From positions 1-33,891 of the forward strand of contig JANYLG010000179.1 of NCBI GenBank assembly GCA_025363775.1: DNA of 33,891 nucleotides. The letters are read 5' to 3'. Positions 19,983 through 26,681 of this stretch are shown piece after piece; the first letter of the stretch is position 1; every line of letters starts with the position of its first letter. Position numbers and translations under genes: made by a program. This stretch comes from Acidobacteriota bacterium (GTDB lineage: Bacteria; Acidobacteriota; Vicinamibacteria; Vicinamibacterales; Fen-181). Below the pieces are notes generated by a model. It ran no database searches and was not told the origin of the DNA. It worked only from the letters and a program-made list of their open reading frames with translations.

Positions 19983-20138
19983 GCTCCCGTATTGTAGTCC
20001 AGCGCCACGAGGGCAGGTGGCGCGGAACGATGGGGCGGTCCCGCGCTGGGGTGTACTATGGGTCCCGACTGCGCGAAGTTTCCGACGTCCTGAAAGAGAA
20101 ATCATGATGACGCGGTTGACTGTCCTCGGAGGAGACGC

Positions 20139-20480
20139 ATGATCAAACCGGTGTTCTACTGCAAGCCCACGTGAACGACCTGCCGCAACGCCAGAAGTTA
20201 TCTGGACGAGAACGGCATCGACGTCGAGTTCAAGGATATCGTCAAGGATCCACCACCGCACGCGTTCCTCGAGAAGCAGGTCGACGAAGAGCGGTTCGTC
20301 GAGTTCCTCAGCAGGCGCAGCCCGGTCTGGAAGGAGCGGCCGCTTCCGACATCGAAGAGGCAGGCCATCGACCTGATGCTCGAACAGCCAAACCTGATCA
20401 AGCGCCCGGTCCTCATCAAGGGCTCTCGGGTCGTCTTCGGGTTCGATAAGGCCCAGTACGAGGCACTGCTGAGAAGCTGA
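20139..20480 (+). CDS. ArsC/Spx-family selenoprotein with Sec at the catalytic cysteine (UGA codon 12)
   Basis: 113 aa counting selenocysteine. ATG follows GGAGGA (20128-20133). Codon 12 is TGA (20172-20174); reading through gives KPT-U-TTC-RNA, a U-x-x-C motif at the position where ArsC has its catalytic Cys12 and Spx-type proteins have CxxC. The remaining 100 codons run without interruption to TGA at 20478-20480. They match the ArsC/Spx/YffB family: RSYLDENGI after the active site, and near the C-terminus LIKRPVLIKG with GFDKAQYEALL. A SECIS-like hairpin begins straight after the TGA. Likely role: thiol/selenol oxidoreductase or arsenate-reductase-like enzyme; the substrate is unknown. Ordinary gene callers would miss it or call it a pseudogene. 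C8 is a second cysteine before the motif. The selA/B/C/D machinery is not in the window. Confidence 0.87.
20176..20220 (+). promoter_or_regulatory. Bacterial SECIS element (bSECIS)
   Basis: The apical stem CCAGA/TCTGG (20191-20195 with 20201-20205) closes a five-base loop AGTTA, with G at loop position 2. The loop starts 21 bases after the TGA, inside the usual 16-37 base window. A second stem TGCCG/CGGCA (20181-20185 with 20213-20217) and a short CGA/TCG pair (20176-20178 with 20218-20220) lie below. The whole element is also coding sequence. Expected to recruit SelB with Sec-tRNA. Confidence 0.8.
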
Positions 20481-21962: not shown

Positions 21963-23351
21963 ATGCGAATCGTTCTGGCGGACTTGAAGGGTCGCAAAGG
22001 ATTTGTTTCGAAAGATACAGTCGCTGGCGGATACGGGTCGCGCTTCAAGCCGTTTTCGAAGACGACCGCCTGGGTGCATCTCTTCAAGCGGCAATACCAC
22101 GACACGCCCAGCGTGCATCTGGCCTATATCGCCGCGATTTTTGCGCAGTCGGGACACGACGTCGTGTTCACCGGCGGCGGACTGGTGGACGGCGACCTGG
22201 CCATCGTCCTGTCGTCGCTGGTTGACTATCGCCACGAGACCGAATGGGCCGACGCCATGAGGACGCGAGGCGTTCGTGTCGGCTTCGCGGGCCTGGCGGC
22301 CTCCAAGATGCCGCACCTGTTTGCCGATCACGCGGATTTCGTCCTGGACGGCGAACCCGAGGCGGCAATCGGCCGGCTCGCCAGGGGCGAGCGACTCGAC
22401 GGCATCTGCAAGAGCGAGGCGATCATGGACCTCGACTCGCTGCCGTTCCCCCGCTGGGACCTGATCACGAAGCCGCGGCCGCTGGGCATCCAACTCTCGA
22501 CGCGGCCGGTCGGCGGCGGGTTCCCGCTGCTGGCCAGCCGGGGGTGCCCGGAGTTCTGCACGTATTGCCCGCATCGCATCCTCGCCGGCTACCGCGCGCG
22601 GTCGGTCCGCAATGTGGTGGATGAAATCGAACAGATGTGCCAGCGGGCGCGCCGGCCGTACATCATCTTCCGTGACTCCCTCTTCTCCGAGAATCGCGAG
22701 CGCATCGTCGAGCTCTGTGACCAGATCCTGGCGCGCGGTTTGAGCGTGAGCTTCGAGTGCGAAACGCGCCTGGATCGCGTCGATGATGAGCTGCTCCGGC
22801 TGATGCAGGCGGCCGGGTTGCGGACCATGAGCTTCGGTGTCGAGTCGGTCTCGCCGGAGGTACTGAAGAGGGTGGGGCGGCGTCCAATCCCGCCCAACCA
22901 CCAGCGGCAGGTCATCGAGCACTGCCGCGAGCTGAAGATCGTGACGTCGGCGTTCTTCGTGCTCGGCTTCCCCACCGACGACTGGCAGTCGATCGCGGCC
23001 ACCATCGACTTCGCGACCGACCTCAGCCCGACCTTCGCGCAGTTCAAGCTCCTGACGCCGTACCCGGGGACCCCCCTGTGGAAGCAGATGGAGCCGCTCG
23101 TCTTCGAGAAGGACTGGGAGAAGTTCGACGGCTTCACGCCGACGTTCGAGCACCCGAACCTGACGTCCAGGGAACTGATGTTCCTGCTCGGCGCCGCCTA
23201 CACCCATTTCTATATGCGCCCGTCGTACCTGGCGAACATGTTCAGGCTGCACAACACGGTCGTGCGTGGCTGGGTGGATCGAATGGACCGACGCGTCTCG
23301 GCGCGGATCACCAGGCGCGAAACCGAGATCATGGGACCTGTCACATGCTGA
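21963..23351 (+). CDS. B12-binding-type radical SAM protein
   Basis: 462 aa. An N-terminal cobalamin-binding-like region (about 1-150) with IAAIFAQSGHDVVF and the FVLDGEPEAAI segment precedes a radical SAM core (about 180-390). The cluster motif is C195-x3-C199-x2-C202 (CPEFCTYC) followed by PHRILAGYRARS. The GVESVSPEVLKRVGR and FFVLGFP segments are typical of class B12-radical SAM enzymes (methyltransferases and HpnJ-like ring-contraction enzymes). The canonical DxHxxG cobalamin motif is not obvious, so B12 may be bound loosely or not at all. Start ATG has GAGGG upstream. It overlaps the next gene by 7 bases, so it acts with the aminotransferase. Substrate unknown. Confidence 0.85.
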   Translation: MRIVLADLKGRKGFVSKDTVAGGYGSRFKPFSKTTAWVHLFKRQYHDTPSVHLAYIAAIFAQSGHDVVFTGGGLVDGDLAIVLSSLVDYRHETEWADAMRTRGVRVGFAGLAASKMPHLFADHADFVLDGEPEAAIGRLARGERLDGICKSEAIMDLDSLPFPRWDLITKPRPLGIQLSTRPVGGGFPLLASRGCPEFCTYCPHRILAGYRARSVRNVVDEIEQMCQRARRPYIIFRDSLFSENRERIVELCDQILARGLSVSFECETRLDRVDDELLRLMQAAGLRTMSFGVESVSPEVLKRVGRRPIPPNHQRQVIEHCRELKIVTSAFFVLGFPTDDWQSIAATIDFATDLSPTFAQFKLLTPYPGTPLWKQMEPLVFEKDWEKFDGFTPTFEHPNLTSRELMFLLGAAYTHFYMRPSYLANMFRLHNTVVRGWVDRMDRRVSARITRRETEIMGPVTC

Positions 23352-24625
23352 CCGCCATCTCCCGTTATGGCGCGCGGGTGCACCCGGCGACACAGCAGAT
23401 CGTCGCAGCGTGCCGGGAGCGCGGCGAGTTCATCCAGGGGCCGCAAATCGCGGCATTCGAACAGGCGTTCGCGGCCCGGCTGGGTGCACACCATGCGATC
23501 ACGGCGTCCTACGGGCGCATAGCGTTCTACTTCATCCTCAAGGCGCTGCAGATCCCGGCGGGGTCGGAGATCATCCTGCCGGCGCTCACGTTCTGGGGCG
23601 TCCCGGAGCTGGCGCGGGTGGCGGGCCTGACGGTGCGCTTCGCGGACGTGGACCCGGCCACGTTCTGCATGGACCCGGCGGCACTCGAGCGGACGATCAC
23701 GGAGAAGACGCGGGCGGTGGTGCCGACGCATCTCTACGGCCTTCCGTGCGACATGGACGCCATTCTCGACATTGCCGGACGGCACAACCTGGCGGTCGTC
23801 GAGGACTGCGCGCACGCCCTTGGCGCGACCTACCGTGGCCGCCCGGTGGGGACATTCGGCGACGGCGCGCTCTTCAGCTTCCAGACGTTGAAACCGCTGA
23901 ATTGCTATGGCGGCGGGATGGCGGTGGTCCGGGAGGCGACGGTCGCGGAGCGCGTGCGGCAGCAGGTGGAAGCGCTCCCGTGGCCGGACGAGAAGAGGAT
24001 CGCGAACAAGCTGCTCGTCGGGCGGCTGCAGCGGATCTTCACCCGGCCCCGGGTGTTCACCTTCACGGGGTTCCCGATTCTCTGGGTGTCGAGCTATACC
24101 GGCTCGCAGCCGGACGTGTACCTCTGGGAGAAGATCCGCTCGCTCAATCCGCTGCCCGAGGACTACCTCGAACGGTGCAGCAATGTGCAGGCGACGCTGG
24201 GCCTGGCCGGGCTCGATCTGCTCGACGGCTGGACGGCCGCCACGCGGTCTCACGCGCACGCGATGAACGCGGCGCTCGGCGACCTGCCAGGCGTGCAAGT
24301 GCCCAGCGAGCAACCGGAGCGCACGCACGTCTACTACCAGTACTGCCTCTCCGGACCCGACCGCGATGGGCTGGTGCGCGATTGCATCCGGCGTGGCGTG
24401 GACACCGAGACGCTGCACGTAGACGTGTGCACGCGTCTCGACCTGTTCGGCGGGGAGCGCTCGGAGGCCCCGGGGGCGGATCGCGCCGCGCAGGCCATCC
24501 AGGTCCCGGTCTACGCGTCGCTCACCGACCAGCAGTCGCGGCGGGTCGTGAGGGTCGTCCGGGAGGCCATCGCCCGGCGCCTTCCGGCCGCTGCGACGCC
24601 TCCTTCCCAGGGTGTCAGCGTGTGA
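23345..24625 (+). CDS. DegT/DnrJ/EryC1/StrS-family PLP aminotransferase (copy 1)
   Basis: 426 aa. PLP enzyme of the sugar-aminotransferase superfamily. The PLP-binding Lys is K183 in FSFQTLKPLN, followed by GGGM; EDCAHALGATY holds the Asp that contacts the pyridine nitrogen; PTHLYGLPCD and ILPALTF are also conserved. The C-terminal part (HVDVCTRLDLFGG) is shared with the second copy at 25398 but is not a motif I know from classical StrS enzymes, so this is a distinct subfamily. Starts 7 bases inside the radical SAM gene, and its stop overlaps the DedA start (GTGA). Family members aminate keto-sugars, but some act on other carbonyls. Confidence 0.87.
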   Translation: MLTAISRYGARVHPATQQIVAACRERGEFIQGPQIAAFEQAFAARLGAHHAITASYGRIAFYFILKALQIPAGSEIILPALTFWGVPELARVAGLTVRFADVDPATFCMDPAALERTITEKTRAVVPTHLYGLPCDMDAILDIAGRHNLAVVEDCAHALGATYRGRPVGTFGDGALFSFQTLKPLNCYGGGMAVVREATVAERVRQQVEALPWPDEKRIANKLLVGRLQRIFTRPRVFTFTGFPILWVSSYTGSQPDVYLWEKIRSLNPLPEDYLERCSNVQATLGLAGLDLLDGWTAATRSHAHAMNAALGDLPGVQVPSEQPERTHVYYQYCLSGPDRDGLVRDCIRRGVDTETLHVDVCTRLDLFGGERSEAPGADRAAQAIQVPVYASLTDQQSRRVVRVVREAIARRLPAAATPPSQGVSV

Positions 24626-25293: not shown

Positions 25294-25397
25294 CAGCGCT
25301 CGTATGACAGGCCATCGACCAGCCCGCCCTCAGGGATGTGGCTGGCTGGATGGACACGGGATTGTTGGCAGCACACAGCCGGAAGGAAGGCGACATC

Positions 25398-26681
25398 ATG
25401 GCCGCTATCGCGAGATATGGCATGCGGATGGTGCCGGACGCAGAGCAAATCGTCCGGCAATGCCGCCAGCGCGGACAACTCGTTCAGGGACCGCACATCG
25501 CGGCCTTCGAAGAGGAGTTCGCTCGCTTCCTTGGCCAGGGGCACGTACGTGCGGTCTCCCTGGAATATGGACGCATGGCTCTCCTTGACATCCTGAAGTC
25601 CATGAAGTTCCCTCCGGGTTCGGAGATCATCGTGCCGGCGCTGACGTTCTGGGTGGTCCCGGAGATCACCAGAGTGGCGGGCCTGAAGCCCGTGTTCGCC
25701 GACATCGACCCGGCCACGTTCACCTTGAGTCCAGCAGCGATGGAGCGCGCGATTACACCCAATACTCGCGCGGTGCTGCCGACACACCTCTACGGACTTT
25801 CCTGCGATCTCGATCCGATCCTGGCGCTCGCCCGCCGTCATGATCTGAAGGTGATCGAGGATTGTGCACATTCGCTGGGAGCCACCTATCGTGGCCAGAT
25901 GGTGGGCACGTTCGGCGATGCCAGCTTCTTCAGCTTTCAAGCCTTCAAGCCGCTGAACACCTTTGGGGGCGGCATGGCATGGATGCGGGACGCCGAACTG
26001 GCGCGGCGGGTTGGCGAGTATGCCGATGCAGAACCCTGGCCCAGTGAAGAGCGGGTGAAGAGCATCTTGCGCGCTGGCTGGTGGCAGCGAACGTTCATTC
26101 GGCCCACCGTGTTCACGTATTCCGGGTTCCCGATCTGGTGGGCCGCTTCCTGGCTGAACACGAAACCGGACCGGTTCCTCTGGGAGAAGGTCCAGCGCCT
26201 CGATCCGCTGCCTGCCCACTACGGGGGCAGGTTCTCCAATGTCCAGGCGGCGCTCGGACGGGCCGGACTGGCACGGCTACCCGAATTCATCGAGCGAACC
26301 AGACGGCATGCGCGGATGCTGGATGCACTTCTTGGAGATATTCCTGGTGTGAGCGTGCCTCGCACACCGCCAGATCGCACCCACGTCTACTATCAGTACT
26401 GCGCCTATGTCCCGGATCATGAAGAACTCGTTCGGAGTTGTATCCGAAGAGGCGTGGATGTGGCGCCAATGCACGTGGATGTATGCACCCGCATGGAACT
26501 GTTCGGTGGGCACGGTCCGGAAGCCAAAGGCGCCGAGAAGGCTGCGACGGCTGTTCAAGTTCCAGTGTACGAATCGCTTGCGGACCACGAAATCGAGCGG
26601 ATCGGCCGGAGGGTGAGAACGCAGGTACTGAGACAGACCCGCCGCCCGAGGGCTGCCGGTGGCAGCGAGCCCGGACACTGA
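25398..26681 (+). CDS. DegT/DnrJ/EryC1/StrS-family PLP aminotransferase (copy 2)
   Basis: 427 aa. Paralog of the 23345 gene along its whole length: both begin with an AIxRYG motif and share EDCAH.LGATYRG, VGTFGD, FSFQ..KPLN..GGGMA and HVDVCTR. The PLP Lys is K184. I chose the ATG at 25398 because AAGGAAGG precedes it and it matches the start of copy 1. Copy 2 looks slightly less GC-rich at third positions and has its own strong promoter, unlike copy 1. The copies could act on different keto substrates, in sequence or as a heterodimer. It ends 92 bases before the convergent nth gene. Confidence 0.87.
   Translation: MAAIARYGMRMVPDAEQIVRQCRQRGQLVQGPHIAAFEEEFARFLGQGHVRAVSLEYGRMALLDILKSMKFPPGSEIIVPALTFWVVPEITRVAGLKPVFADIDPATFTLSPAAMERAITPNTRAVLPTHLYGLSCDLDPILALARRHDLKVIEDCAHSLGATYRGQMVGTFGDASFFSFQAFKPLNTFGGGMAWMRDAELARRVGEYADAEPWPSEERVKSILRAGWWQRTFIRPTVFTYSGFPIWWAASWLNTKPDRFLWEKVQRLDPLPAHYGGRFSNVQAALGRAGLARLPEFIERTRRHARMLDALLGDIPGVSVPRTPPDRTHVYYQYCAYVPDHEELVRSCIRRGVDVAPMHVDVCTRMELFGGHGPEAKGAEKAATAVQVPVYESLADHEIERIGRRVRTQVLRQTRRPRAAGGSEPGH

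Follow-up and report, generated by a model that had tools for sequence, protein, structure and literature searches.

The window (the whole stretch of 33,891 nucleotides that was analysed) carries a small ArsC/Spx-like gene that contains an in-frame TGA at its twelfth codon (Table 1). The gene order, i.e. queC-queE on the minus strand followed by the ArsC/Spx-like gene on the plus strand, a DUF72 gene and nth, was compared across related loci by tblastn of the window proteins and was found to be kept in most of the related loci that were fetched with flanks. When the TGA is read as U, the open-frame translation begins MIKPVFYCKPTUTTCRNARSYLDENG, in which the redox residue of a UxxC motif corresponds to the in-frame TGA. 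Elsewhere in the window, a radical-SAM gene is followed by two similar aminotransferase-like genes (23078-24625 and 25338-26681), apparently a pair that arose by duplication within a surface or secondary-metabolite cluster. The region 2580-2760, where the N-terminal end of a minus-strand LarE-like gene is encoded, is of low complexity and highly repetitive.

Table 1. Features of the ArsC/Spx-like locus, with positions in the window
Feature	Position	Strand	Remarks
Shine-Dalgarno-like GGAGGA	20128..20133	+	5 nt upstream of ATG; sequence
ArsC/Spx-like gene, probable selenoprotein	20139..20480	+	113 codons, TGA codon 12 read as Sec
Probable UGA codon for Sec12, which opens the UxxC motif	20172..20174	+	column is TGA/Cys in homologs
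Cys15 codon, inferred resolving thiol of UxxC	20181..20183	+	invariant in alignments A1 and A3
Outer-stem 5' arm TGCCG	20181..20185	+	present here, not a conserved element
Apical stem 5' arm CCAGA of probable SECIS	20191..20195	+	end of Ala18 codon and Arg19 AGA; pairing/compensation in relatives
Apical loop AGTTA of probable SECIS	20196..20200	+	G in position 2, then U; all 39 relatives have this G
Apical stem 3' arm TCTGG of probable SECIS	20201..20205	+	Tyr21 third base, Leu22 CTG, next G
Outer-stem 3' arm CGGCA	20213..20217	+	present here, not a conserved element
True stop codon TGA of the gene	20478..20480	+	homology ends there

The product matches the Pfam ArsC model PF03960 (E 4e-15; 56.2 bits against a cut-off of 24), while it scores below the cut-offs of the models for the ArsC family (seleno)protein (NF041106; 20 against 85 bits, the other subgroups giving at most 38.6), glutaredoxin-type arsenate reductase (TIGR00014; 39.9 against 106 bits) and the Spx transcription regulator (NF002459; 43.8 against 123 bits). 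An AlphaFold model built from 26 relatives (pLDDT 93.5, compared to 50 without an alignment) displays a thioredoxin-like ArsC fold, and the closest folds to this model are those of the ArsC-related protein 3gkx (Z 16.1, rmsd 1.9, 110 residues aligned), YffB (1rw1, Z 15.5) and Spx (3gfk, Z 14.2). A helix comprising residues 13-24 starts directly after Sec12 in the model, so that the hairpin bases described below also encode the active-site helix, in agreement with the original prediction. In an alignment of 13 relatives Arg60 is invariant and Arg89 nearly so; we equate these residues with Arg60 and Arg94 in the ArsC protein of E. coli. The protein shares its fold, a similar length and the location of the redox residue with YffB and the Spx/MgsR-related ArsC proteins (TIGR01617), but would carry Sec where these carry Cys, and scores 74.7 bits against a TIGR01617 cut-off of 75.05 (75.5 bits in a congener). 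The UXX-star glutaredoxin-like selenoproteins (NF041212 and others) similarly possess Sec in the redox motif of a thioredoxin fold; however, these are glutaredoxin-like proteins of about 70 residues, on whose model the ArsC/Spx-like protein scores 26 against 66 bits.

It could be argued that the protein is not an enzyme but regulates RNA polymerase in the manner of Spx, by way of a selenium-based redox switch: among proteins of solved structure, Spx gives the best sequence matches (3l78, 2e-17), and TIGR01617 is named Spx/MgsR. The score just below the TIGR01617 cut-off and far below the Spx models speaks against this, as does the ranking of the ArsC-related and YffB folds ahead of Spx. Furthermore, the alignment column of Spx Gly52, which is presumably the contact for the alpha-CTD, holds Arg in this protein, for which reason an Spx-like role is considered possible but less likely; overall, we deem it improbable. 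The specific proposal that the Sec form is a selenium-dependent regulator of the Spx kind rather than a housekeeping reductase, in which a Sec12-Cys15 selenenylsulfide would switch RNA polymerase or a partner protein more rapidly, is a little more doubtful still; if it were true, selenium status would feed into transcription in Acidobacteriota.

Downstream of the TGA, the original prediction had described two nested stems around an AGTTA loop with G in its second position, and every one of these letters and positions was confirmed, including a distance from TGA to loop of exactly 21 nt. Both stems are present in the minimum free energy (MFE) structure of the window. The 46 nt following the TGA fold at -16.5 kcal/mol, as compared to -8.6 (sd 2.2) for shuffled sequences (z -3.6; 1 of 200 shuffles as good), while the MFE ranges from -16.5 to -17.1 kcal/mol for 46-53 nt past the UGA and amounts to -4.5 for the inner stem-loop by itself. 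The bacterial SECIS (bSECIS) model specifies an apical loop of 3-9 nt with a G at its first or second position (often followed by G or U), an upper stem of 4-16 bp, 16-37 nt from UGA to apical loop, and an MFE of -7.5 kcal/mol or lower (PMC13188914). The hairpin lies within these limits with respect to size (a 5-nt loop and a 5-bp stem), loop sequence, spacing and the energy of the 46-53 nt after the UGA. It thus shares with bacterial SECIS elements the small loop with an early G and then U, the stem, the spacing, the MFE and the tie to a UGA, and nothing essential differs, although the stem is short and the outer stem unconserved. Applying a stricter null, in which the peptide is kept and the codon usage is that of the window, a complete inner stem (5/5) is obtained with P about 0.033 and a complete outer stem with P about 0.61 (p 0.03-0.05 for the hairpin overall), and consequently the window by itself is only suggestive; proof of the hairpin comes from its relatives. 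Rfam scans under default and permissive settings returned no match, although Rfam may not cover bSECIS, and no viral contig with the motif was found.

The prediction had also presented the element as a two-tier SECIS, in which the outer stem TGCCG/CGGCA matters as well. This part of it stands only in so far as both stems exist and are included in the predicted fold. In the set of 39 TGA genes of Vicinamibacteria type, 61.5% of the outer-stem cells are paired, but pairs 20184-20214 and 20185-20213, the two innermost of this stem, are broken in 24 and 30 of the 39, respectively, and a double change was observed at no outer pair. Moreover, the peptide and codon usage would lead one to expect a complete outer stem about 61% of the time. 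Being unconserved, uncompensated and expected by chance, the second tier is unsupported, and we judge a true two-tier element to be very unlikely; the outer stem is part of the predicted fold of the source sequence and, judging from these comparisons, not a conserved element.

The column of the putative Sec residue was examined in 119 non-redundant homologs, in which TGA occurs in 75, TGC in 34 and TGT in 10 (44 Cys codons in total). Because the hairpin bases are also codons, a position-specific hairpin score (that of the best hairpin, with G required in the first two loop positions) was compared with a null that keeps peptide and codon usage. Downstream of 74 TGA codons the best hairpin averaged -6.5 kcal/mol against a null of -2.1, and downstream of 44 Cys codons -1.5 kcal/mol against -2.1, the synonymous nulls being equal in both groups (-2.08 versus -2.09). 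A score of -3 was reached in 72 of the 74 scorable TGA homologs versus 8 of the 44 Cys homologs (Mann-Whitney p 3e-15; the hairpin p-values are too small, since related sequences were counted as independent), and in the two TGA genes that fell short of it (L011 and L089) the hairpin is present with one mismatch. Retention of the hairpin at this distance in TGA homologs, as the original prediction had anticipated, is thereby borne out. As genes switch between Sec and Cys about 11 times across the tree, the contrast is not one of clade versus clade. A Cys gene within the Vicinamibacteria-type clade (L048) reads CCCGG..TCTCG and has lost the stem. The whole-region MFE with a synonymous null had been assessed as a SECIS test, but it failed to tell the Sec genes from the Cys genes (p 0.067), as coding sequence rich in GC folds in any case, and was replaced by the position-specific score.

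Two Cys homologs, L094 (TGC) and L153 (TGT), retain the hairpin letters in a partly broken form (GCCAGAAGTTTCCTGC; GCAAGAAGTTTTCTTA), apparently left over from a change of Sec to Cys. The hairpin of four ArsC-type TGA homologs (L172-L175; e.g. GCTGTTC-CGTGA-GAACGGC) is shifted downstream by about 7-9 nt but stays within bSECIS spacing: the position of the element varies within the family. A further homolog (L049, genome G153) possesses, besides the Sec TGA, a TAG soon after the hairpin (RSFLK-TAG), which is a broken copy or a sequencing error.

The inner stem is paired in 99.5% of cases among the 39 Vicinamibacteria-type TGA genes, and the predicted compensatory change at synonymous positions was found at its pair 20195-20201. 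This pair is A-U in 26 genes and G-C in 13, with no mixed state in any of the 39 (Fisher p 1e-10), both sides being synonymous third positions (Arg AGA/AGG on one side; Phe, Tyr and others ending in T/C on the other), and the tree requires three separate switches between A-U and G-C. The letters might instead be kept for protein or codon reasons alone, as part of the NARSFL stretch of the active-site helix, with no RNA role; three of the five inner pairs are indeed invariant in close relatives and lie within conserved codons, and the evidence for covariation consequently rests on one pair and on distant relatives. Such constraint, however, does not account for the joint switching of two synonymous third positions, nor for the choice of codons, since Arg19 is AGA/AGG in 39 of 39 genes (against 11% for the other Arg codons of these genes) and codon 20 is AGT in 31 of 39 (5% of Ser codons elsewhere in those genes). 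In addition, the stem is mostly missing from Cys homologs, and more distant groups spell the same stem differently. Binatota-type genes have CGCAAGA/TCTTGCG, family f35 has AGCAAA/TTTGCT and family f26 has GGTCAAG/CTTGACC, in each case at roughly the same location, while certain other Acidobacteria have CGCGCGG/CTGCGCG. A purely protein-level explanation is therefore, in our estimation, even slightly less probable than a true second tier. The hairpin at 20191-20205 is very probably a bacterial SECIS element, and the original prediction of a bSECIS-type hairpin following a Sec UGA is upheld by the relatives as well as by the limits of the model.

The source assembly (3.8 Mb, 83% complete) encodes the components expected of a bSECIS host, namely SelA (540 bits), SelB (369 bits), SelD (345 bits) and a tRNA-Sec with anticodon tca. 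Outside the class, SelB was detected above the cut-off in 17 of 17 TGA genomes versus 4 of 20 Cys genomes, while within the class it was not above the cut-off in 7 of 41 TGA genomes, several of the seven being incomplete. SelD of the source assembly (L060, G000:C214, about 329-331) apparently contains Sec as well, since its reading frame is interrupted close to the N-terminus by a TGA (EMVSCSG-TGA-ASKL) with GC-rich hairpins behind it. Three congeners (G071, G072 and G073) carry no copy of the ArsC/Spx-like gene, and since G072 and G073 do have SelB and tRNA-Sec, the gene is patchily present or has been lost.

Within the class, the ArsC/Spx-like gene has TGA in 41 of 44 homologs (source genome included) and TGC in one, while two fragments stop short. 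The protein is conserved past the TGA, with an excess of third-position differences (1666 versus 938 and 846), and TGA 20172-20174 very probably encodes Sec, the evidence being of the usual comparative kind for selenocysteine. The contrary notion, that the TGA is an ordinary stop, a mutation or a sequencing error which truncates the gene and that the hairpin is a chance product of GC-rich coding sequence, may appeal to the only mildly improbable hairpin of the window alone (P about 0.033) and to the fragmented MAG from which the sequence derives, but it is already contradicted and almost certainly wrong in view of the same TGA in 75 homologs, the conservation and third-position excess beyond it, a hairpin that goes with TGA and not with Cys, and the Sec machinery encoded in the same assembly.

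Taken together, it is highly probable, indeed close to certain, that positions 20191-20205 constitute a bacterial SECIS in the coding region, directing Sec at UGA 20172-20174 of a UxxC oxidoreductase. The comparison of sequences shows the column that holds TGA or Cys, the hairpin with its compensatory changes, the disappearance of the hairpin where Cys is used, and the co-occurrence with SelB; SelB binding, Sec insertion and redox chemistry are inferred. During translation, SelB-GTP-Sec-tRNA(UCA) would bind the 5-bp AGTTA hairpin 21 nt downstream of the UGA, and SelB would deliver selenocysteine at this codon. The product would be a UxxC thioredoxin-fold oxidoreductase on an ArsC/YffB-like scaffold, with Sec12 as the nucleophile and Cys15 as the resolving thiol. 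The same bases would have two duties, forming the RNA stem and encoding A18-L22 in the active-site helix, and selection would keep rare codons (AGA/AGG, AGT) in the hairpin while both sides of the stem change together.

UxxC ArsC-like selenoproteins have been reported from marine metagenomes in the GOS survey as 'Arsenate reductase 2' (PMC2398784) and appear in reviews (PMC9312934; PMC13188914, as NF041106). The protein described here shares with these the ArsC/Spx-type thioredoxin fold and, in all probability, Sec as the first residue of UxxC, but scores only 20 against 85 bits on the NF041106 model and derives from soil/groundwater Acidobacteriota rather than marine samples. Our literature search, which covered mainly openly accessible journals, retrieved no description of such proteins in Vicinamibacteria. 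While UxxC ArsC-like selenoproteins are thus known, the Vicinamibacteria-type subgroup is outside the curated selenoprotein models tested, and automatic annotation may well stop such genes at the TGA or miss them for this reason. The hairpin is a clear, otherwise ordinary new case of a known mechanism. Genomes of the Vicinamibacteria and Binatota types widely carry the TGA-interrupted oxidoreductase, which offers a clean natural experiment in how an RNA code and a protein code overlap, since a single family allows Sec and Cys forms to be compared, with a hairpin that accompanies UGA, is mostly gone with Cys and is repaired by paired silent changes.
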